Shown here piece after piece: positions 37,774 through 64,000 of a DNA stretch of 64,000 nt (positions are counted from its first letter, which is position 1; each line of letters begins with the position of its first letter). A program made the translations under genes and the position numbers. Below the pieces are notes generated by a model, which was not told the origin of the DNA, searched no databases, and saw only the letters and a list, made by a program, of their open reading frames with translations. This DNA is from Terriglobia bacterium. GTDB lineage: Bacteria > Acidobacteriota > Terriglobia > Terriglobales > Acidobacteriaceae. The stretch spans positions 62,001 to 126,000 of the forward strand of contig JAIQFP010000004.1 of the NCBI GenBank assembly GCA_020073165.1. The letters are read 5' to 3'.

Positions 37774-38326
37774 ATAAACTGGAAGCAACATTTCATCCCA
37801 GAGACGCAGAGCATGATTCTCACCCTCTGTTCAAAATCGGACAGTGACCGCGCGACCTTCCCCGGACAACGAACAGCAGGATCAGCTGCCGCGAACCATG
37901 AGGAGGCAGCGTGACCGCGCTCTTGGTGGGGAAAAGCGTCCGATTTCGGGCAGGCCGGGAAGTAGATTCGAACTTTGGAAGTTCAACCTTGCGCCAGGAT
38001 ATGAAAAGCTGGACTCGGCGGTCTCACTCGCCAGAGATAACCACGCGGACTGCCGGCTCACTGCGAATAAGAATGTGCAGAAAATTTACAAACGTTTCTC
38101 ACCTTTCGTGAATCTTAACGTCTAAGTGAGCAAGAGTTTTCCGGCACAGGCCGGGTTGCCCCTCGCGCTTGGAACAGACGGACCGCGACTCGCGATTTCA
38201 GGTCCAGATCTGAGGGAACGAATCGGCGGAGCTTTACGTATTCCAGCGCAGGATGGGTTGTTTTCAGGGCGGGGTGGAGCAGCGGACACAGGCGCCGGCA
38301 AAGCTGCAAGGCTCCGGAGGATGGTC
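37774..38326. other. Gap between marR and the winged-helix gene
   Basis: No recognised gene in about 550 bases. One short frame, GTG 37911 to stop 38109-38111 (66 codons), follows a strong GAGGAGG ribosome site, but the translated sequence is Arg/Ser-rich and looks like nothing known. In-frame extensions of the next gene back to 38126 have no protein-like character. Confidence 0.4.
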
Positions 38327-38860
38327 ATGGAAAACGGGCGGAACGGTAACAATGGGAACGGGAACCTCAAGAACCTTCCGGGCAGTGGGGATCCACATGT
38401 CCAGGAGGTAGTGCGGGCTGCGCACGAAGAACTGCGGCAGCTCATGCGGCAACGGGCCGAGATCATGAAGCGCATCGGTACCGTCAAACAGACAATCGTG
38501 GGACTGGCCAACTTGTTCGGCGACGACGTGCTGACCGAGGAGTTGCTGGAGTTGGTGGATCGCAAGAGCGGTGGACGCCAGCCGGGATTTACCAAAGCGT
38601 GCCGGATGGTGCTGATGGAAGCCGACCGGCCGCTGGGGGCCCGCGAGGTTTGCGAGCAGATCCAGCAGAAGGTTCCGCCGGTACTGCTTCGGCACAAGGA
38701 TCCGCTGGCCTCGGTGACGACGGTGCTCAACCGGTTAGTGGAGTATGGTGAGGCGCGCACCGTGCCGCGCGAGAACGGGCGCAGGGCGTGGCAGTGGGTG
38801 TCGGACCCGGCGAACACAGGGTTGGGCGCTACCCGAAGCGAGAACTTCACCGAGGCTTAA
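38327..38860 (+). CDS. Probable winged-helix DNA-binding protein of unknown function
   Basis: A 177-residue protein with an Asn/Gly-rich start, a helical region (about 25-65; HEELRQLMRQRAEIMKRI) and a C-terminal winged-helix-like domain (about 85-160; ADRPLGAREVCEQIQQK, then SVTTVLNRLVEYGEARTV). ATG 38327 has a CGGAGG site at 6-base spacing. The ATG two codons earlier is too close to it. No named family recognised; the C-terminal pattern resembles small acidobacterial HTH proteins. It stands alone. Confidence 0.6.
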   Translation: MENGRNGNNGNGNLKNLPGSGDPHVQEVVRAAHEELRQLMRQRAEIMKRIGTVKQTIVGLANLFGDDVLTEELLELVDRKSGGRQPGFTKACRMVLMEADRPLGAREVCEQIQQKVPPVLLRHKDPLASVTTVLNRLVEYGEARTVPRENGRRAWQWVSDPANTGLGATRSENFTEA

Positions 38861-39033: not shown

Positions 39034-39747
39034 TTACGCCGGCGGCAGGAGCATTCCCTTCTCCAGATGACGCGTGACGTGAGCGTAGGAGGCTGCATGC
39101 GGGTCATGGGTCACCATCACCACCGTCTTGTGAGAATCCTCGTTTAGGCGCTTCAGGATGTCGAGCACCTCCGTCGCGGAATGACTGTCGAGGTCGCCGG
39201 TCGGCTCGTCAGCGAGCAGCAGAGTGGGATCGCTGACAATAGCGCGGGCGATGGCGACGCGCTGTTCCTGTCCGCCGGAGAGTTGCTTGGGCAGATGGTT
39301 GACGCGGTCCTCGAGGCCAACGAGTTTGAGGGCGGTCATGACGTGGTCGCGGCGCTGCTGCGCACTGAGCTTGGTCAACAGCAGTGGCAACTCCACATTC
39401 TCAAAGGCGGTGAGCACGGGAATCAGGTTGAATGTCTGGAAGACGTAGCCGATGTGCTCGTTGCGCCAGCGCGCCGACTGGCCATCGCTGAAGCGGAAGA
39501 TGTTCTCGCCCAGCACCAGCAGGTCCCCCGAGGTCGGCCGGTCAATGGCGGCAATCATGTTGAGCAAGGTGGTCTTGCCCGAACCCGACGGACCCATCAG
39601 CGCGAGGAATTCCCCGGCGGCGATCTCGAGGGAAACTTCGTCGAGCGCTTTGACCTCAAAAGCATCGCGCTTGAAAACCTTGCTGACGTTGCGGGCCTGG
39701 ACGACTTTAGTCTGGGTAGCCGTATGTGGAACGGTAGCAGTGCTCAT
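39034..39747 (-). CDS. MacB/LolD-like ABC transporter ATP-binding protein
   Basis: A 237-residue ATPase of the MacB/LolD group that drives FtsX-type permeases. Walker [10 protein letters not shown] (52-60), signature LSGGQ (156-160), Walker B LLLADEP (176-182) and the H-loop in VMVTHDPH are all present, so it should be active. Its ATG overlaps the stop of the adaptor gene (ATGA), and it is the last gene of a four-gene exporter operon. Confidence 0.93.
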
Positions 39748-41117
39748 GACTGTCCTTTGATCTTGATTTTGTCTCCATCTTTCAAATTGGGCGGACCGGA
39801 AATAATGACGTCCTCGCCGCCGGTCAGCCCCTCGACTAGATAGCCGTTACTACGGGTCGCATGAATTCGGACCTCCCGCATGATTGCCTTGCTGTCGTAC
39901 ACGATGAACACGACCTTCTTTCCCTCGTGGTCGCGCACCGCCGCGGTGGGCACCAGCACCCCCGAAGGCTGCGCAGTCGTGGCTTTGCTCCCCGCTTCGT
40001 TCGGCAGGAAATTCACCGTGGCGTTCATATCCGGACGCAAGTAGGAATCCGGGTTGAGGATTTGCACCTTGATCTGCACTGTCGCCTTCTGGCGGTCGGC
40101 CTCGGGCGAGATCTCTGCGATTTGACCGTCGTACTTGCGGTCGGGATAGGCGTCCGTGCTGACGATGCCCTTCTGGTGCGGGCTGAGCTTGCTGAAATCA
40201 TCCTGCGCAATATCCAATTCCACCTGCAAGTCATTGAGATCGGCAAGCGCCACCACCGAACCCTGCGGGCCGCCCTCCGCCGAACTGGCAAATTGCGCGG
40301 TGATCAGCTCTCCCTTTTCCGCAGTGCGTTCCAGGATGGTGCCGCTCACCGGCGCCCGAATCACCGTGGCATCGAGTTGCGACTGCGCATAGGCCAACTG
40401 GCCCTCCGCCTGGAGCAGTGCGCCTTTGGCCCGCGCAATCTCTTCCGCACGGGGTCCGATCTTCATCAATTGATACGCCTGGGTCAGCGAGTTCACCCGC
40501 TGCTGGTCGGCATCAAACTTGGCGGTAGCATCGTCCAGCGATTGCTGCGATAAGACACCTTGCCGCACCAGGTCGCGGGTACGATCTAACGTGATCTTGT
40601 CATTGGCAAGAGTGGCACGAGCTTCGTCGAGGTTGTGTTGGGCCTGCTGAATTTCCTGAGGCCGCGAGCCGTTCTCCAGTTCCTGCAAATAGGCCTTGGC
40701 GTTTTCCGCCGCTCCCCTGGACTGCATGACTTGGGCGCGGAATTCGTCGTCTTCGAGACGCACCAGCACCTGGCCCTGCTTGACCTTGTCGCCCTTCTCC
40801 ACCCCGATCCAGGCGACGCGCCCGGTGACCTTGGAGTTCACGTTGATCTTGTGATGCGCGACGATGTAACCACTGGCGGTGAGCACCGTGCCGGGCGTAT
40901 CGGCGCTTTCCGCGGTGGCTCGCGCCACGGTCACTTCCGGCGCATCCGCTGCAAGCAGGCGGTAGGCAACAGCAATCACGCCCAGAAGCACCACCAGAGC
41001 GATGCCGCCGACAATGTATCGGCGGGCCCAGAGCGGCGGCTCCCCCTCGCCGTTGCCGCGTTGCGAGCGGTCGATGCGCAGGCTCTGCAGGTCTTGATGT
41101 TTGGTATCAATCGCCAT
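39744..41117 (-). CDS. Periplasmic adaptor (HlyD/MacA-like) of the ABC exporter
   Basis: A 457-residue membrane-fusion protein. One N-terminal membrane helix (about 33-50), a split lipoyl domain ([22 protein letters not shown] and later RAPVSGTIL), a long helical hairpin (about 120-235), and a beta-barrel/membrane-proximal part ([15 protein letters not shown]). It bridges the inner-membrane permeases to an outer-membrane channel; no TolC gene is in this window. It lies 29 bases after the second permease and overlaps the ATPase gene by 4 bases. Confidence 0.9.
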
Positions 41118-41146
41118 GGTTCGTCTTCAGTCGTCCACAAACCGAA

Positions 41147-42310
41147 TCAGTCGCGCAACGCTCCCACAATGTTCTGGCGGGCGGCGTGCCAGGCCGGCGC
41201 CAGGCCTCCGAACAGGCCCATGATCATGGCAAAAATGACCGCGGCCGTGACCACTCCCGGGGTCATGCGCAGGCTGAACACCGCTTCGCTGAAGGTGACC
41301 GGGTTCGATGTGCCCGTGGTCATACCGTTGAAGGGCAGCATCAGCACAATGCCGGCCAGCGCTCCCAGCAGCGACAGCAATAAGGATTCGAAGACAAATG
41401 AAGTCAGGATGCTGGGGCGCGAGAACCCGATAATACGCAGCGTGGCAATTTCGCGCGCCCGGTAGGCCACCGCCGCGTACATGGTGTTCATGGCGGCAAA
41501 GCAGGAACCGATCGCCATAATGATGGCCACCACCGTGCCCACAAACTTTATGGGGTTCCCCGACTTGGTCTGTTCCGCGTAGTAATCCGATTCCAGCATT
41601 CCGTTCAGCTTCAGCCTCTGGTCGTCACTGACGCGGTTCTTCAGGGCCACGGCGGTGGCCGGGTCGGTGGCCTGTATCAGCACGGAGGAATACTGGCTGC
41701 GATCGAGATCGGAAGCGATCTGGTTGATGTCGCCCCAGATCTCGGATTCATGCGCCGAACTGCCGCTGTCGAAGATGCCAACCACCGTCCAATTGCCTTT
41801 GCCGAAAAACACGGTATCGCCCAGATTCGTGTGGGCGAAGCGCTCGTGAATCGATTTGCTCACCACCACTTCGCGTTGTCCGGGAGTAAACCAGCGCCCG
41901 GAGATCAGCTTCACCTTAGGACGCATTTCCAGACCCACCGGCGCCAGGAACCGGATGGTGACGTTCACGTCGCCTGTCCCGTCTTTGCGCGGCAGCACGA
42001 TGACCAGGATGTTTTCTCCGGAGATAAGAGGTTCGCCTTGACTGTTTTTGGCAATTCCAGGCAGGTCCTTGAGCACCTGCATGGCGTCGCGCGACACTCC
42101 TCCCGCGGCTAGTTCGGAGGTGGAACCTTTGCGCAGGACCAGGACAGTGCGGGCATCGCCTGTCGTCGCGAAGGCGTCGCGCAGTCCCGCCAGCAAAGCC
42201 ATGATGAAGATGGCGATGGTGACGGTCAGCGCGATGCCCAATGCGGTCATCACGGTGGCGCCTTTGCGCAGTCGCAGGTTCCGGATGTTGTAGCTGATCG
42301 GTATCGCCAT
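41147..42310 (-). CDS. FtsX/MacB-like ABC permease (second of two)
   Basis: A 387-residue permease. The first membrane helix (about 20-45) is followed by a periplasmic MacB_PCD-like domain, then three helices carrying the FtsX signature (AYRAREIATLRIIGFSRPSI, and at the end HAARQNIVGALRD). An AGGAGAG ribosome site precedes the ATG; the upstream permease stop is 12 bases away. It differs clearly from the first permease, so the exporter is probably a heterodimer. Confidence 0.9.
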   Translation of the reverse strand: MAIPISYNIRNLRLRKGATVMTALGIALTVTIAIFIMALLAGLRDAFATTGDARTVLVLRKGSTSELAAGGVSRDAMQVLKDLPGIAKNSQGEPLISGENILVIVLPRKDGTGDVNVTIRFLAPVGLEMRPKVKLISGRWFTPGQREVVVSKSIHERFAHTNLGDTVFFGKGNWTVVGIFDSGSSAHESEIWGDINQIASDLDRSQYSSVLIQATDPATAVALKNRVSDDQRLKLNGMLESDYYAEQTKSGNPIKFVGTVVAIIMAIGSCFAAMNTMYAAVAYRAREIATLRIIGFSRPSILTSFVFESLLLSLLGALAGIVLMLPFNGMTTGTSNPVTFSEAVFSLRMTPGVVTAAVIFAMIMGLFGGLAPAWHAARQNIVGALRD

Positions 42311-42322
42311 CGCACTCTCCTG

Positions 42323-43474
42323 CTAGCCGATGTGCCGCAATCCTTCCACGATATTCTGCCGTGAGGCGTGGTAGGCGGGCACGAACGAACTCACCAACCC
42401 CACCACCGCCGCCACCACCACCGCCACCAGCATAGTAGGCACGGTCACTCTCATGCCGTTCAGAAACAGGCCGGTCTGGGGCGAACGTGCCACGGCAGCA
42501 ATCAAACCGGCCGCTGCCAGCGTCCCCAACAATCCTCCCACCAGTGCCACGGTCACCGACTCACCCACGAAGAGCCCGAGTATCTTGGCCTTGGTGAAGC
42601 CCAGCGTCTTGAGCACGGCCACCTCGCGGGTCCGCTCGCGGATGGACATGGCCATGGTGTTGGCCGACACCAGCAAGGTCGCAAACACCACCGCCAGGCA
42701 GATACTGAGGATGAAGGCCTTTACATTCCCCAGGGTCGCGATCCAGCTCAGCTGAAATGCGTGCTCGCTCTCTGTCTTCGTCGGACGCGGGGCGTTACGG
42801 AATTCCTCATCAATTTCCCTGGCGACTTTGGGCACGTCCTGTGGCGAATCGGCCAGCACCCCGTAGAACCCCACGAGGCCCTTGATCTGCGGATAGCCTT
42901 CGTCAATGTAGGTGTTGTTAAAGTACAGCGATTGGGTAGGCTGCGGCGCCGTGTACATTCCCCGGATGGTGAGTTCCAGGTTCACCGGGAAAATGGTTCC
43001 CTTGATGAACAAACGATCGCCGATCTTCCATCCATGTTGTTTGGCCAGATCGGCATCCACTACACACCCGGCGCGGTCATGCTGCCAGGCTCGCAGTTGG
43101 TCTGGCGGGATCTTGAATTCTGGGTACACCTCGAACAATTCCTCCGGATCGGTGCCGAACTGCGCGAAGAAATTCTCCGGTTTCGCGTCCTTGTACTGCC
43201 CGCCAAACCAGGTCTGATTGACCACATGCGTGACTCCCGGAAGCGAACGAATTTTCTCCCGGTAGGAATAGGGAAGGAAAAAGACCAGTGATACTTTGTG
43301 CCGCGTGATCAACCGTTGCGCCGATTCGGCGCTGCCCTCGGTCAGGTAGAACGCCCGCCAGATGGTCATCATCAGAGTCAGCAGCAGCAGGGAAAACGCG
43401 ATGCTCAGCACTGTCAGGGTCGTGCGCCGCTTGTTACGGAAGGCGTTCTTGCTCATGAAGCGAGTCAGGGTCAT
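42323..43474 (-). CDS. FtsX/MacB-like ABC permease (first of two)
   Basis: A 383-residue permease starting the exporter operon. N-terminal helix (TLTVLSIAFSLLLLTLMMTIW), a periplasmic domain of about 200 residues, then three helices with the FtsX signature (RTREVAVLKTLGFTKAKIL; end HASRQNIVEGLRHIG). The order permease-permease-adaptor-ATPase suggests export of a small amphiphile or peptide, or lipoprotein-type extraction; the substrate cannot be read from the sequence. Confidence 0.9.
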   Translation of the reverse strand: MTLTRFMSKNAFRNKRRTTLTVLSIAFSLLLLTLMMTIWRAFYLTEGSAESAQRLITRHKVSLVFFLPYSYREKIRSLPGVTHVVNQTWFGGQYKDAKPENFFAQFGTDPEELFEVYPEFKIPPDQLRAWQHDRAGCVVDADLAKQHGWKIGDRLFIKGTIFPVNLELTIRGMYTAPQPTQSLYFNNTYIDEGYPQIKGLVGFYGVLADSPQDVPKVAREIDEEFRNAPRPTKTESEHAFQLSWIATLGNVKAFILSICLAVVFATLLVSANTMAMSIRERTREVAVLKTLGFTKAKILGLFVGESVTVALVGGLLGTLAAAGLIAAVARSPQTGLFLNGMRVTVPTMLVAVVVAAVVGLVSSFVPAYHASRQNIVEGLRHIG

Positions 43475-43995: not shown

Positions 43996-46569
43996 ATGCC
44001 TAACAGAATCGGCCGTTTCGACATACTCAGTGAAATCACCAATTCGTCGACCGGGTCGGTCTACAAAGCCTCCGATCCGGAAAGCGGACAAACGGTGGCG
44101 CTCAAGACCCTCAAGTTGGAGGCGTTCGGAGACCAGGCGGCGGCCCTGTTGCAGAGCGTGCTGGAGGAAGCCGAGACCACCAAGTCCCTGAACAGTCATA
44201 ACATCGCCCTGGTGTACGGAGCCGGGGAGCTGGAGGGCTTGTTCTGCGCCGCGCTGGAGTACGTGCAGGGCAACAGCATCGCGACCATGCTGGCGCGGAA
44301 AGAAGGCTTCTCCATCTGGGACTTGCAGGACATCGCGCGCCAGACCTGCCAGGGTCTGGACCACGCCCATGCCAAAGCTGTATTCCATTACAGCCTGGAG
44401 CCGGCCAAGATCATGGTCCAGTGGGATGGCACGGTCAAGATGCTGGGTTTCGGAGTTTCCCTGATGAGCGCGCATGCGCAGCATGCTTCCGGCCAGCCGA
44501 CCGAAGTTCTGCACTACATGTCTCCCGAGCAGTTGCGCGGGGAATCGCTGGATGCGCGCTCCAACCTGTTCAGCCTGGGTGCCGTCCTTTATGAGATGGT
44601 GACCGAGCGCAAGGCCTTCGAGGGCGCAGATGCGGACCAGGTGCGGCAGCAGATTCTGGAGCAGATGCCGACCGCTCCCATCCAGATCAACCGCAAGATC
44701 CATCCTGCCCTCAGTGAAGTGATCATGAAGGCGCTGGCCAAGGCGCCGCAAGAGCGGCATCAGTCGGGCCAGGAGTTGGTCAACGATCTGGAGCGGTGCA
44801 AGGAAAGCCCGACCAAGACCGCGGCCAAAGCCGCCCAACCGACGCAGGGGTTAAATCTGCCGCCGAAGCAAAAGCCGGCAGCCAGCGCTCCTCAGCCGGT
44901 AAAGCAGGCCCCAGTGGCTGCCGCACCTCCGAAGCCGGTTGCGGCCAGGCCGGAAGCGAAGAGTCTCTCCAAGCCGCCGGCCGCAGCGGCCAGAGCAACG
45001 CAGCCAGCACCACCCGCTGTCCAGCAAGCCCCGGCCGAGTTCCAGGTTGGAAATGAAACCGACACCCAGCCGACCGTTCCGGAGTGGAAGGCAGCCGCGG
45101 CTGCCGCCGGTTGGAGCGGTGCGGGCACCGGCCCATCACCCGAAACGCCAAGGCGGACACCCAAGCTCGACCCCACGGAACAATTCATCAGTTCCTGCGT
45201 GAAGGCCTCCGTGGATGCACTGGCCGGCGAGCAAAGCAAGATGTCGGCGGCGACGGCGGAGCCGGAAGTGGAGACTCCCAGCATCAAAGTCGATCCCATG
45301 ATGGCTGAGCCCAACGAAGATGCCGGGTCCCATTCCCGCAGCTTCTCGGAAATTGACGAATTGCCGCCCCTAAAAGAGATCTACATCGCACCCCCATCGC
45401 CGCCTGCACCCGAGGTGTCGGCTGCGGTGCACGAGCCGGCCGTAACCATGTTCAGGGAGCCCGCTCCGGAGAAGCCCAGGATTCAGCCCAAGGAAGTGGC
45501 CAAGAAGGCGGTAGCGGAGATCAAGAAAACGCCGCCCAAACTTTTCGTGTACTCCGTGGCGGGGGCGATTGGATTTATTCTGCTCCTGATCGTCGCGATT
45601 GCCTTCCATATTCACAATGAGAATGCCGATGAGGACAGCGACCTAACCCAGTCTTCTCCGGCAGCGGTAGCAGCGACGACTCAGCCCAGTGGGCGCCGGT
45701 CAGCAGCTCCGGTGCAGGCGCCAGCAGCGCAGACTCCACCCCAGGGGCAGGCAGTAGAGCCAGAACCGGTCATGGAGCAGCCGGCTGAAGTTTCGGTCAA
45801 GCCCAAATACAACAACCGAAGGAAGCCAGCAAGAACGCCCGCGCCGGCGCCGGTGGCGGTTCCGGGACAGCTGACCGTGAACTCGACACCAGAAGGAGCG
45901 CAGTTTCACTTCGACGGCCACAACGACGCCAGTTGGGTCACACCGTACAATCTGACAGGATTGACGCCTGGCCAACACACGGTGACGGTGACCAAGCCGG
46001 GATACGCGTCGGAGACCCGCAATATCGAGGTGGCCTCGGGCAGCAAGTCTTTCCTGGTAGTGCAATTGGCGCCCCTGACGGCCTCGGTCTCCGTCGCCAG
46101 CGAACCTGCGGGGGCGGCCATCTTCCTGGATGGCAAAGACACCGGCCACGTGACCCCGGCCCAGATCTCAGTGAACAGGCCCGGCGAACACACCGTGCTT
46201 CTGAAGAAGATGGGTTATTTGGAGGAAACCGCCACTGCCAACCTGCAAGCAGGACAGGTTTTTCACTTCGCGCCGGCGTTGCGGGCATTGGGCTCCACGG
46301 ACGATATCAAGACCGTGAGCAAGTTCAAGAAAGTGTTTGGGGGCGGCGACCCGGCAGGCATGGGCACGGTCAGCATCAAGACGCAGCCCAAGGGAGCCCA
46401 GATTGCCGTCAACCAGAGGATCATCGACAAGGTTTCGCCGGTGCAGTTTTACCTGAATCCCGGGACCTATGTGATCGATGTGACGATGTCGGGATTCAAG
46501 CCGCTGCGTCGCGTCATTAATGTCGACAAAGGCGGTAAGGTCGCATTGGACGAGACCCTGGAACGCTAG
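43996..46569 (+). CDS. Pseudokinase-fold membrane protein with three PEGA repeats
   Basis: The 857 residues begin with a Ser/Thr-kinase fold (about 7-275). Lys37 (VALK) is kept, but the active site is lost: the Gly loop is TNSSTGSVY, HRD is His131-Tyr132-Ser133, the following Lys is Glu135, the metal Asn is Lys138, DFG is Gly151-Phe-Gly, and the helix-F Asp is Asn190. Phosphotransfer is therefore very unlikely. A long Pro/Ala-rich linker leads to a membrane helix (about 515-538). Outside it are a second linker and three PEGA domains (about 625-690, 694-760, 789-857), which typically bind S-layer or wall-like surfaces. It probably acts as a scaffold or allosteric signal protein. Confidence 0.88.
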   Translation: MPNRIGRFDILSEITNSSTGSVYKASDPESGQTVALKTLKLEAFGDQAAALLQSVLEEAETTKSLNSHNIALVYGAGELEGLFCAALEYVQGNSIATMLARKEGFSIWDLQDIARQTCQGLDHAHAKAVFHYSLEPAKIMVQWDGTVKMLGFGVSLMSAHAQHASGQPTEVLHYMSPEQLRGESLDARSNLFSLGAVLYEMVTERKAFEGADADQVRQQILEQMPTAPIQINRKIHPALSEVIMKALAKAPQERHQSGQELVNDLERCKESPTKTAAKAAQPTQGLNLPPKQKPAASAPQPVKQAPVAAAPPKPVAARPEAKSLSKPPAAAARATQPAPPAVQQAPAEFQVGNETDTQPTVPEWKAAAAAAGWSGAGTGPSPETPRRTPKLDPTEQFISSCVKASVDALAGEQSKMSAATAEPEVETPSIKVDPMMAEPNEDAGSHSRSFSEIDELPPLKEIYIAPPSPPAPEVSAAVHEPAVTMFREPAPEKPRIQPKEVAKKAVAEIKKTPPKLFVYSVAGAIGFILLLIVAIAFHIHNENADEDSDLTQSSPAAVAATTQPSGRRSAAPVQAPAAQTPPQGQAVEPEPVMEQPAEVSVKPKYNNRRKPARTPAPAPVAVPGQLTVNSTPEGAQFHFDGHNDASWVTPYNLTGLTPGQHTVTVTKPGYASETRNIEVASGSKSFLVVQLAPLTASVSVASEPAGAAIFLDGKDTGHVTPAQISVNRPGEHTVLLKKMGYLEETATANLQAGQVFHFAPALRALGSTDDIKTVSKFKKVFGGGDPAGMGTVSIKTQPKGAQIAVNQRIIDKVSPVQFYLNPGTYVIDVTMSGFKPLRRVINVDKGGKVALDETLER

Positions 46570-46595: not shown

Positions 46596-46632
46596 GGCCC
46601 GCTTCCGAGTTGGGAGCGGGCCATCTTCTTTC
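46596..46632 (+). terminator. Rho-independent terminator after the pseudokinase gene
   Basis: An 11-bp stem (GGCCCGCTTCC / GGGAGCGGGCC, one wobble pair) with a 5-base loop, followed by ATCTTCTTTC, 27 bases after the stop codon. Confidence 0.75.
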
Positions 46633-48593: not shown

Positions 48594-49052
48594 GTGGCCA
48601 AAAGCATTCTCAATCCATCGTATCCCGAGCTATGGCAAGCGCTGGACGGGCTGAAGTCGGTCCGCACATACGCCGAGGGAACTCCCGTGTTTCAGGTAGG
48701 AAGGCCCGCCGACGGCATCTATCTGGTTGAAAAGGGGGAGGTTCGGCTTACGATGCCGTCATCGCAGAAGGTCGAGCGCACGTTTGAAATCGCCGGCCCC
48801 GGAACCGTCCTAGGTTTGAGCGAGACCATGACCGGTGAGGCCCACAAGCTAAGCGCAGAGGCCGCCAGCCAAGCCCAGCTCGCCTACGTAGAGCGCGGGT
48901 CGTTGCTGGAATTCCTGCGGGAGCACCACCAGGTCTGCCTGCAGATCGTGCGCCTCTTGAGCGAGGACTTGCACGGGCTGTATCAGCGCTTTCAATGCAT
49001 GAGTTCGGAAGAGAAGGCCCGCCGGAAAGCCAGCCCGGCCAGTGTGAATTGA
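48594..49052 (+). CDS. Cyclic-nucleotide-binding domain protein without DNA-binding domain
   Basis: A 152-residue protein consisting of one cNMP-binding (CAP_ED) domain (about 15-130; EGTPVFQVGRPADGIYLVEKGEVRL and GPGTVLGLSETMTGE). The usual C-terminal helix-turn-helix of CRP/FNR is absent; the protein ends in a short charged helix. The phosphate-binding cassette lacks the classic R-[ST]-A, so cAMP binding is doubtful. A GTG start at 48594 follows GAGGACCT. It may act by protein-protein contact. Alone in its transcription unit. Confidence 0.75.
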   Translation: MAKSILNPSYPELWQALDGLKSVRTYAEGTPVFQVGRPADGIYLVEKGEVRLTMPSSQKVERTFEIAGPGTVLGLSETMTGEAHKLSAEAASQAQLAYVERGSLLEFLREHHQVCLQIVRLLSEDLHGLYQRFQCMSSEEKARRKASPASVN

Positions 49053-49141: not shown

Positions 49142-49774
49142 TTAGTAGCGACGGAACGCAGACTGGTAACCGGTGCGATAGCCGTTGGCATACTGGGCCC
49201 GGTAGGCATCCTTGCTGCCGTATTCGCTGCGGTACCCATGGTCCTCGTCGTCATACTTGCCGCGGGGATTGGGGTTGTACGGCTTGTTTGTCGCCGTGTC
49301 CTCGCGCGCCACGGACGCTCCATCCTGGTAGCCGATGTTGTACCCGACATTACCGCGGCCCCACGAGCCGTACGGGTAGTGCCCGTCGTTGATGGGGCGG
49401 ATGTCGTCACGGTCGCCATCGCCGTCACCCCACCCGCCACGGTTCACCGAGCGGTAGCCGGCCTGGAAGCCATTGCGGTAGCCGTCCCGATACGAGTTTT
49501 GAAACACCTGCACCGGTCCCATCCAGGATTGGTAGCCGCGTGTGGCCTGGCGCCAATCCGGAGTTTGATAGTCGTTGGGGTCCCGTTCCCGGCCTTCGTG
49601 CTGGCCTTGGCTGTAGCCGTCGCGATAACCATTCTGATATCCGTACTGTTCCGCCTGACCGTAGCCCCGTGAGTAATAGCGGCCATCATCGTCGGCGTCG
49701 CGCTGGGCGAGAGCCAAGCCGCTCAGCACCACTGTCACCGCCACTGCGAATGCTGCCATTCTCAATTGCCGCAT
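49142..49774 (-). CDS. Exported Gly/Tyr-rich repeat protein
   Basis: A 210-residue protein with a signal peptide ending in LALAQ. The mature part has many imperfect NGYRDGY/AGYRS-type repeats, rich in Tyr, Gly, Asp and Arg, in two blocks (about 35-65 and 95-115) and again at the C-terminus. No enzyme motif. Such repeats suggest a disordered or surface-associated structural protein. The GGGAGGAG site is better spaced for ATG 49774 than for the ATG before it. Confidence 0.65.
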   Translation of the reverse strand: MRQLRMAAFAVAVTVVLSGLALAQRDADDDGRYYSRGYGQAEQYGYQNGYRDGYSQGQHEGRERDPNDYQTPDWRQATRGYQSWMGPVQVFQNSYRDGYRNGFQAGYRSVNRGGWGDGDGDRDDIRPINDGHYPYGSWGRGNVGYNIGYQDGASVAREDTATNKPYNPNPRGKYDDEDHGYRSEYGSKDAYRAQYANGYRTGYQSAFRRY

Positions 49775-50053
49775 CATGGTCTCCTCCCACCGGGTCCCTC
49801 CGATCCTCGCTGGAAGCCGGCCTTCGTTTCTGCTCGGCCTGTCTTCCGACGGTGTCCCGGTATCTGTATCGATGGGATGCGGCGGGATCGGGATTTTGCT
49901 GCTTGCAGCGAACGTAAAGAAATGTTGTTTAACCTGAAGCGAACCTTAAGCCTGGGAGCGGGCCATCTGCATTGTTTCCAGCACCGCCGGCGCACCGCCA
50001 ATTTCCACGCGAGGTGTTAGACTTTCAGGTTTTCTTCATTGGGAGAGGCCCTC

Positions 50054-63284: not shown

Positions 63285-64000
63285 ATGTCTTTGGCGCCCG
63301 GCACCAAACTCGGCCCCTACGAAATCCAGTCGCCGCTGGGAGCCGGTGGTATGGGCGAGGTGTACCGGGCGCGTGACACGCGCCTGGAACGCACCGTTGC
63401 CATCAAGATTCTCCCTGCTCATCTCTCGGACAGCCCTGAAGCCAGACAGCGCTTCGAGCGCGAGGCGCGGGCCATTTCGTCCCTTAGCCATCCCAATATC
63501 TGCACCTTGTTCGACGTCGGCCAGCAGGAGGGCACGAGCTATCTGGTGATGGAGTGCCTGGAAGGGGAGACGCTGGCAGACCGGCTGCGCAAGGGGCCTC
63601 TGCCCCTTGGGCAGGTTCTGAAATACGGAATCGAAATCTGCGAAGGCCTGGAGAAGGCACATCGCAGCGGCGTGGTGCATCGCGACCTGAAGCCCGGCAA
63701 CATCATGCTGACCAAGACCGGCGCGAAATTGATGGACTTCGGCCTGGCTAAGTCTGCATCCGCTGTCAATCCGCTTTCTTCGGGCCTGTCCGCCACCATG
63801 GCTGGCGATGCGGGACCGCTCACAGCGCGAGGAATGATCGTGGGGACATTTCAGTACATGTCTCCAGAGCAGGTGGAGGGTCGAGACGCGGATGCGCGGA
63901 GCGACATTTTCTCGCTCGGCGCCGTCCTCTACGAGATGATCGCGGGCAAACGGGCCTTTGAGGGGAAGACCGCTGCCAGCACGATTGCCGCAATCCTCGC
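63285..64000 (+). CDS. Ser/Thr protein kinase (N-terminal part; continues past the window)
   Basis: An intact Hanks-type kinase start of 238 visible residues. Gly loop GAGGMGEVY, Lys41 (VAIK), catalytic HRDLKPGN (Asp134), DFG (Asp151) and the P+1 region GTFQYMSPEQ are all canonical, with RSDIFSLG in helix F. It contrasts with the pseudokinase at 43996. The C-terminal part, often holding a membrane helix and a TPR or propeller sensor in these bacteria, is outside. ATG 63285 begins the common MSLAPGTKLGPYEI start. Confidence 0.93.
   Translation, partial: MSLAPGTKLGPYEIQSPLGAGGMGEVYRARDTRLERTVAIKILPAHLSDSPEARQRFEREARAISSLSHPNICTLFDVGQQEGTSYLVMECLEGETLADRLRKGPLPLGQVLKYGIEICEGLEKAHRSGVVHRDLKPGNIMLTKTGAKLMDFGLAKSASAVNPLSSGLSATMAGDAGPLTARGMIVGTFQYMSPEQVEGRDADARSDIFSLGAVLYEMIAGKRAFEGKTAASTIAAIL

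Follow-up and report, generated by a model that had tools for sequence, protein, structure and literature searches.

What can a bacterial kinase fold still do for its cell once the catalytic residues have been replaced, when it is linked through the membrane to an array of domains on the outside? The question is raised by a gene of a Terriglobia bacterium (Acidobacteriota), at 43996-46569 on the forward strand of a stretch of 64,000 nucleotides (contig JAIQFP010000004.1, positions 62,001 to 126,000), which is called the window here and belongs to a genome of 4.6 Mb. The gene encodes a protein of 857 amino acids, comprising in order a PknB-like kinase fold, an Ala/Pro linker, one transmembrane (TM) helix and three PEGA domains. 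Our preferred reading, to which we give a probability of roughly 0.6, is that the protein is a non-catalytic transmembrane relay. The lack of catalysis is predicted from the residues of the active site, and signalling is what we infer. An initial annotation had proposed a candidate non-catalytic envelope signalling protein, and the proposal gains support here, in that the replacements are kept, nearly unchanged, across a clade of relatives under purifying selection.

Active site and domain layout

The catalytic positions were assigned by alignment with intact kinases. The HRD position is occupied by H131-Y132-S133, the DFG position by G151-F152-G153 and the helix-F Asp by N190 (RSN for RSD), which bears out the earlier statement that every catalytic Asp is replaced. 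The altered Gly loop and the kept ATP lysine that had been described are also found: glycines 1 and 2 are T15 and S17, with the third, G20, retained, and K37 stands in VALK. The alphaC glutamate E58, E178 of SPE and R254 are kept too. Two changes go beyond those listed previously, namely E135 for the catalytic-loop Lys and K138 for the Mg-binding Asn. At the three positions that define an active Ser/Thr kinase (HRD Asp, Mg-binding Asn, DFG Asp) there are thus S133, K138 and G151. The protein is read as non-catalytic because the HRD Asp, the catalytic-loop Lys, the Mg-binding Asn, the DFG Asp and the helix-F Asp are all replaced.

The limits of the open reading frame were confirmed exactly. It starts with ATG, preceded by AGGAAG, and the nearest in-frame stop upstream is separated from this ATG by just two codons (859 codons from stop to stop). 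Pfam identifies Pkinase at residues 13-256 (E 1.5e-35) and PEGA in three stretches (E 1.2e-35), the latter with 121.7 bits against a cut-off of 20.8, which places them within the PEGA family. That the kinase part has a Hanks-type (PknB-like) bilobal fold is indicated by Pfam, by AlphaFold2 (pLDDT 92, pTM 0.90) and by fold comparison, with a VIA Z of about 30 to Stk1, PknA and PknB; PknB is also the closest solved structure by sequence (3.3e-32). The PEGA array is modelled as three all-beta units (AlphaFold2 pLDDT 91.4, pTM 0.67), the linker between units 2 and 3 scoring low. Its matches among solved folds are common beta-sandwich folds: domain 1 resembles carboxypeptidase beta domains (VIA Z 9.1-9.7, with 9.1 to the transthyretin-like domain of carboxypeptidase D, 5aq0), and the hit for domain 3, to chain B in the RtkS-PpkA complex (9k1u), has a Z of 7.2, which is below the tool's trust level. 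A sequence search of solved structures with the PEGA part gave no match. The TM helix is located by hydropathy at about residues 521-539 (maximum 2.69). The charge ahead of it exceeds the charge behind it in 89 of 91 family members, and from this asymmetry and the positive-inside rule the kinase part is placed in the cytosol and the PEGA domains outside, in agreement with the membrane helix and three outside repeats described before.

The features of the gene are listed here. Counts refer to the 100 kinase rows without the HRD Asp that are described, together with the main clade, in the next section.

43996..44808, + strand: pseudokinase domain, residues 1-271 (Pfam Pkinase, AlphaFold2, VIA Z)
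44104..44106, + strand: kept ATP-site K37 of VALK (Lys in 95, Arg in 5)
44167..44169, + strand: kept alphaC E58 (Glu in 96)
44308..44322, + strand: FSIWD, residues 105-109, at the N-terminal end of alphaE (F105, W108 and D109 invariant in the main clade)
44386..44409, + strand: degenerate catalytic loop HYSLEPAK for HRDxKPxN, residues 131-138 (alignment)
44422..44424, + strand: W143 of the beta7-beta8 turn (Trp in all 100, and in none of 8 rows with the HRD Asp)
44446..44454, + strand: GFG for DFG, residues 151-153 (alignment)
44563..44565, + strand: N190 for the helix-F Asp (Asn in 93)
44809..45531, + strand: cytosolic Ala/Pro-rich linker, residues 272-512 (dN/dS 0.177, that of the kinase part being 0.062, window compared with relative L063)
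45343..45375, + strand: linear motif FSEIDELPPLK, residues 450-460 (motif conserved in the main clade)
45556..45612, + strand: TM helix, residues ~521-539 (hydropathy)
45865..46068, + strand: PEGA domain 1, residues ~624-691 (Pfam, AlphaFold2, VIA Z)
46069..46278, + strand: PEGA domain 2, residues ~692-761 (Pfam stretch 696-760, AlphaFold2)
46357..46566, + strand: PEGA domain 3, residues ~788-857 (Pfam, AlphaFold2)

The same genome encodes a full-length paralogue, L002, with 60% identity and the same catalytic-loop and helix-F replacements, and with Ser for the DFG Asp. It lies at the end of a contig (L156:77-2539, +), where its upstream neighbours are out of reach. Among 50 Pkinase matches in the genome, 36 loci of other kinases yielded 32 distinct domains that could be read, and 31 of these have the Lys, Glu, HRD, Lys, Asn and DFG, the remaining one having HCD. 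The two PEGA pseudokinases therefore stand apart from the kinases read in their own genome. The kinase that starts at 63285, at the end of the window, had been offered as an intact contrast. It does have HRDLKPGN and DFG and the contrast is a fair one, but it is not the nearest intact relative. From the window end, three intact kinase genes follow one another on one strand (G000:C8:125306-131523).

Conservation, selection and origin of the clade

The nearest named relative is on a Terriglobia metagenome-assembled contig, JAIQET010000003.1, with 83% identity in the best segment and residues 1-857 matched. When 398 genomes of the same family were searched with a nine-member profile (E 1e-90), 110 gave a match, representing 30 of 79 genera; at least five of the 110 (G004, G027, G102, G104, G115) match through half-degenerate copies, a group of relatives described below. 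In an order-level sample, 89 of 397 genomes were matched, all from the same family. With a broader profile, 24 of 396 genomes of a phylum-level sample were matched at 1e-100, six inside the family and 18 outside. All 18 of the latter have HRD and DFG, and only one shows a partial hit to the profile of this PEGA array. In each of the three samples the two best candidates per genome were scored.

For the conservation counts, loci were found by protein or profile search, hits below 140 bits were dropped, and rows identical over the first 200 residues were merged; one half-degenerate gene is still counted twice (L155 and L228). This gave 108 distinct kinase rows, of which 100 lack the HRD Asp. E135 and K138 occur together in 92 of the 100 and never singly. 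The remaining eight consist of L152 and of seven rows that represent six half-degenerate genes. We define the main clade as the rows with E135 and K138, plus L152. Across the 100 rows S133 is found in 87, N190 in 93, K37 in 95 and E58 in 96, D151 is replaced in 91 (by Gly in 66 and Ser in 25), and both W143 and D144 are present in every one. The DFG Asp has gone from 90 of the 92 rows with E135 and K138. The search for relatives with the same substitutions, which the annotation had suggested, thus finds nearly the same set in most of these rows.

Over 17 pairs, dN/dS for the kinase part is 0.032-0.062 in 11, 0.074-0.106 in four, and 0.146 and 0.352 in the remaining two, where dS is only 0.17 and 0.06. 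Between the window and L063 the values are 0.062 for the kinase, 0.177 for the linker, 0.053 for the TM part, 0.376 for the periplasmic linker, 0.084 for PEGA and 0.124 for the whole protein. For nine neighbouring genes in the same comparison dN/dS is 0.018-0.140, and the kinase part lies below eight of the nine. Because the clade keeps its replacements and is under purifying selection, one-off decay of a single copy is excluded.

Intact relatives with a kinase domain, a linker and a PEGA array were found in ten genomes (L020, L021, L023, L024, L025, L032 and L280-L283). The kinase domains of the first six are 39-42% identical to that of the pseudokinase. All ten differ from it in having HRD and DFG and in lacking the linker motif FS[ED]xxE[LM]PP[LM]; the first six also have the Gly loop and lack F105, W108, D109 and W143. 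At L143 (G019:C20:313915-317169) the PEGA-kinase subfamily is represented by two HRD kinases adjacent on one strand. The annotation had named orthologues with intact HRD and DFG as a possible sign of decay. Intact relatives do exist, yet a main-clade copy is present in none of their ten genomes (all candidates scored), and among the matches listed no full-length intact PEGA kinase occurs in 28 main-clade genomes.

Half-degenerate PEGA pseudokinases (L149-L151, L153-L155, L303 and L304) resemble the main clade in having a PEGA array and no HRD Asp, and the first six also have W143. They differ in keeping a DFG-type Asp, in keeping the Mg-binding Asn in seven of eight, and in lacking W108 and, in the seven full-length ones, the linker motif. 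Arg replaces the beta3 Lys in five half-degenerate rows and also in L303 (HGN and MDFG; G099:C6:55700-58100) and L304 (HHF and LDFG; G074:C3:160400-163000). These last two are further copies without HRD and they also lack W143, which rules out that W143 is always tied to loss of the HRD Asp. Similarly, genomes G027, G074 and G099, which hold both an intact and a half-degenerate copy, rule out that intact and dead copies never share a genome. L151 (also L022; G004:C114:24290-26383) has an in-frame TAA, and is perhaps a pseudogene or an assembly error.

In a tree of 101 rows, the 84 rows with E135 and K138 are split from 14 HRD rows at 100/100, with L030, L031 and L034 ungrouped. With the six half-degenerate genes included (32 rows), the 19 rows without HRD fall on one side at 100/100, and L152 is the first branch within the main clade. 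L152 has HKR, H135, N138 and GFG, and already has the patch and motif described below and the adjoining exporter. When L303 and L304 are added (28 rows), the rows without HRD are still on one side (96/93), the placement of L304 being unsure on its very long branch. The pseudokinase lineage therefore seems to be an ancient paralogue of the intact PEGA kinases and not the product of local decay, although several separate losses of the HRD Asp could be accommodated. It is plausible that the HRD Asp was lost first, and that the metal site was then lost in the main clade, with the appearance of E135, K138, W108 and the linker motif.

Tryptophan patch, juxtamembrane motif and a possible relay

Two features are characteristic of the main clade. 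F105, W108, D109 and W143 are present in 93 of 93 main-clade rows, and none of them occurs in any of the eight HRD rows. In the six half-degenerate genes W108 is absent, F105 is found in one and D109 in two. In the AlphaFold2 model alphaE covers residues 107-126, and W143 is in a turn (142-146) between strands 139-141 and 147-149. In MAP kinases the region of alphaE and beta7-beta8 is a docking groove for linear motifs.

The second feature is the motif FS[ED]xx[EQ][LM]PP[LM], located 54-69 residues N-terminal to the TM helix and carried by 91 of the 92 main-clade rows of full length. The one without it, L235, is apparently the same gene as L125, which has FSAVTELPPLK. A stricter pattern matches 74 of the 91, the 17 misses being Q, E or M variants. 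Ser451 is invariant and is followed by Glu or Asp; all motif rows have Ser here and none has Thr. The motif is absent from five full-length half-degenerate rows, from ten intact PEGA kinases and from both L303 and L304.

On the basis of these observations, we propose that the PEGA array binds a ligand or partner in the envelope, which would set the spacing or the dimer state of the protein. The change would pass through the TM helix to the pseudokinase, acting as a docking and allosteric module, whose most likely contact surface combines F105, W108 and D109, where alphaE starts, with W143 in the turn between beta7 and beta8. In this picture the motif may be the peptide that occupies the patch, either intramolecularly or between two copies of the protein, or it may attract a partner from the cytosol. 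The kept K37/E58 pair and the hinge suggest that nucleotide binding may persist in a metal-free form, with K138 taking the position of Mg. The output is probably not phosphotransfer, judging from the residues present.

A more specific version would be a metal-free nucleotide switch, in which K138 occupies the Mg site and E135 balances it, the nucleotide state gates latching of the motif to the Trp108/Trp143 patch, in its own subunit or in an adjacent one, and the PEGA array pulls the latch. We regard this version as speculative and rather unlikely. If true, this would be a transmembrane receptor of bacteria working through a kinase fold, a nucleotide and a linear motif, with phosphotransfer playing no part.

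Several points weigh against a relay conserved for its function. Two main-clade members retain the DFG Asp. Between the window and relative L065, dN/dS for the kinase part is 0.106, which is not slower than the HlyD, 3HCDH and MBL neighbours (0.073-0.089). W108 and the linker motif became fixed on the same branch, which makes patch and motif a single event and not a case of independent co-evolution. A search of the genome with the motif gave no partner, its three hits being the two pseudokinases and one ELPPFK, against one hit in the control. The exporter operon considered below is missing at 12 of 49 loci. Finally, three of the ten genomes with an intact kinase (G027, G074, G099) also hold a half-degenerate copy, which leaves room for an ancestral pairing of kinase and pseudokinase.

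The role of bacterial pseudokinases is an open question, which this clade makes testable, because it offers active relatives built in the same way, half-degenerate ones (of which three share a genome with an active kinase), fixed replacements and a gained surface and motif. The gained surface and linear motif predict where a new function lies, which would also provide a role for PEGA arrays attached to kinases.

Known families, gene neighbourhood and alternative readings

The best matches among solved structures, in fold and in sequence, are the PknB/Stk1 PASTA kinases, which likewise have the kinase inside and a sensor array outside. They differ in being active and in having PASTA where the 857-residue protein has PEGA. 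The NCBIfam model PknB_PASTA NF033483 gives 196.9 bits against a cut-off of 450, and Pfam gives no PASTA match.

A 2025 review describes bacterial pseudokinases as largely unexplored experimentally and recognises seven families (PMC12599244). The MviN pseudokinase domain (ActPs3) is similarly membrane-tethered and linked to the envelope. By its printed description it has VALT instead of the beta3 Lys, no HRD His (an Lsidh HRD region) and a shortened activation loop, whereas here there are VALK, His131 in HYSLEPAK and a loop that is not shortened (PMC12599244). EssB/YukC of type VIIb secretion is also a transmembrane non-catalytic scaffold, but it has LDMR at beta3, lacks the HRD His and is part of a secretion machine (PMC12599244). 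The DLHK pseudokinases share GFG for DFG in a Pseudomonas example; they keep the HRD Asp, have lost the beta3 Lys and are without a TM helix, in contrast to the S133, K37 and TM helix found here (PMC12599244). The remaining definitions also differ (PMC12599244): in ActPs1 all three canonical residues are replaced, whereas here the beta3 Lys is kept (as in 95 of the 100 rows); ActPs2 and DYD have Arg for this Lys; the GLW family has GLW for HRD, where this protein has HYS; and CP1 has no TM helix and is linked to COG3899, whereas this protein has a TM helix and only kinase and PEGA-type domains in Pfam. The text of the review contains neither 'acidobacteri' nor 'PEGA', and among the papers listed for PEGA domain kinases and for bacterial and Acidobacteriota pseudokinases no title or abstract opening describes this family. 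By their descriptions the reviewed families differ from this clade, which we regard as a new variant, at family level, among the transmembrane pseudokinases of bacteria; a 42-family atlas of bacterial Ser/Thr kinases that the review cites may already assign it.

Two features flank the gene.

39034..43474, - strand: divergent MacAB-like exporter operon, with two FtsX/MacB permeases, an HlyD fusion protein and an ABC ATPase (Pfam)
46596..46622, + strand: terminator-like hairpin directly 3' of the stop (12-pair stem, 9 GC)

Among 49 loci with at least 7 kb of upstream DNA, the first permease is found on the opposite strand in 37, the second in 36, HlyD in 35 and the ABC ATPase in 29. Neither the first six of the intact PEGA kinases listed above nor six half-degenerate genes have the operon beside them, with L146 (0.7 kb upstream) and L149 (about 2 kb) left out of the count. 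Of the intact genes, it is the five with readable upstream DNA that lack the conserved neighbourhood, L024 having only 0.7 kb. A functional tie between pseudokinase and exporter is plausible.

Taking this further, the protein could be a dedicated regulator of the exporter, which it would gate or tether according to the state of the envelope. The first permease is more frequent than the commonest downstream neighbour (28 of 51 loci), in L131 the operon has been relocated yet is within about 8 kb, and L152, the earliest branch of the main clade, has it too. We nevertheless consider such a dedicated role unlikely: the operon is not upstream in the 12 loci mentioned above, the pseudokinase and exporter genes do not form one operon, and neighbours may be merely co-inherited, the synteny figures having no background rate for comparison. 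Another possibility, to which we would likewise give only limited credence, is a phospho-dependent scaffold like MviN, in which an active Hanks kinase phosphorylates the linker or the tail of the domain and the pseudokinase then recruits a cytosolic reader. There is a precedent in MviN, which is phosphorylated by PknB and binds FhaA (PMC12599244). The membrane-tethered arrangement is the same, Ser451 is invariant with an acidic residue after it, and the 50 Pkinase matches would supply candidate kinases. No reader domain was recognised among the neighbours examined, a genome-wide search not having been made. FHA domains favour phospho-Thr, whereas the motif residue is always Ser.

It is improbable that the rebuilt site (S133, E135, K138) makes the protein an unconventional enzyme that uses ATP in another way, as SelO or SidJ do. 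The strict co-occurrence of E135 and K138 in 92 rows and the retention of K37, E58 and the hinge do argue that the site still has a job, because a jobless site would drift; but both usual metal ligands have gone from 90 of the 92, whereas SelO and SidJ retain a metal-binding residue (PMC12599244). There is little to be said for the idea that the protein is the partner of an active PEGA kinase, as an ancient gene copy pairing with the intact enzyme or competing against it. The half-degenerate copies beside an intact kinase in three of ten genomes are what it would lead one to expect, but for the main clade such pairing is disfavoured by the 0 of 10 and, among the matches listed, 0 of 28 genomes given above. 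Least credible is a decaying or neutral remnant of a PEGA kinase. Half-degenerate relatives with partial loss, one of them with an in-frame stop, would be compatible with it; against it stand the intact predicted fold, the fixed replacement residues, the gained motif and purifying selection, with dN/dS for the kinase part well below 1 in all 17 pairs. The non-catalytic relay is thus the reading we prefer.

The pseudokinase gene looks monocistronic. The region contains five terminator-like sites, which is inside the range of shuffled controls (mean 3.4, sd 2.0), and an Rfam scan of the window gave no match. A gene for a receiver-like/TonB_C protein follows the pseudokinase at 28 of the 51 loci that have 6 kb or more of downstream DNA; one example, L068:5519-7429 (-), has a weak receiver-domain match, a long linker, a probable TM helix and a TonB C-terminal domain. 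As an obligate partner it is ruled out by this frequency and by the position of its relative in the window's own genome, L158 (G000:C4:127099-128889), on a separate contig. A second kinase gene as a fixed adjoining partner is also ruled out, having been found at one of 80 loci within the DNA covered.

Three further neighbours can be mentioned. At 48594-49052 the window encodes a protein of 152 amino acids that matches a cyclic-nucleotide-binding domain only, with no DNA-binding match; its gene is downstream of the pseudokinase at 14 of the 51 loci with 6 kb or more. The frame at 38122-38850 (-), of 242 amino acids and without a Pfam match, has a relative in 38 of 80 loci. At 49142-49777 (-) there is a secreted-looking protein that is rich in GYRDGY/GYQNGY-like units and has a sub-threshold Yae1_N match only.

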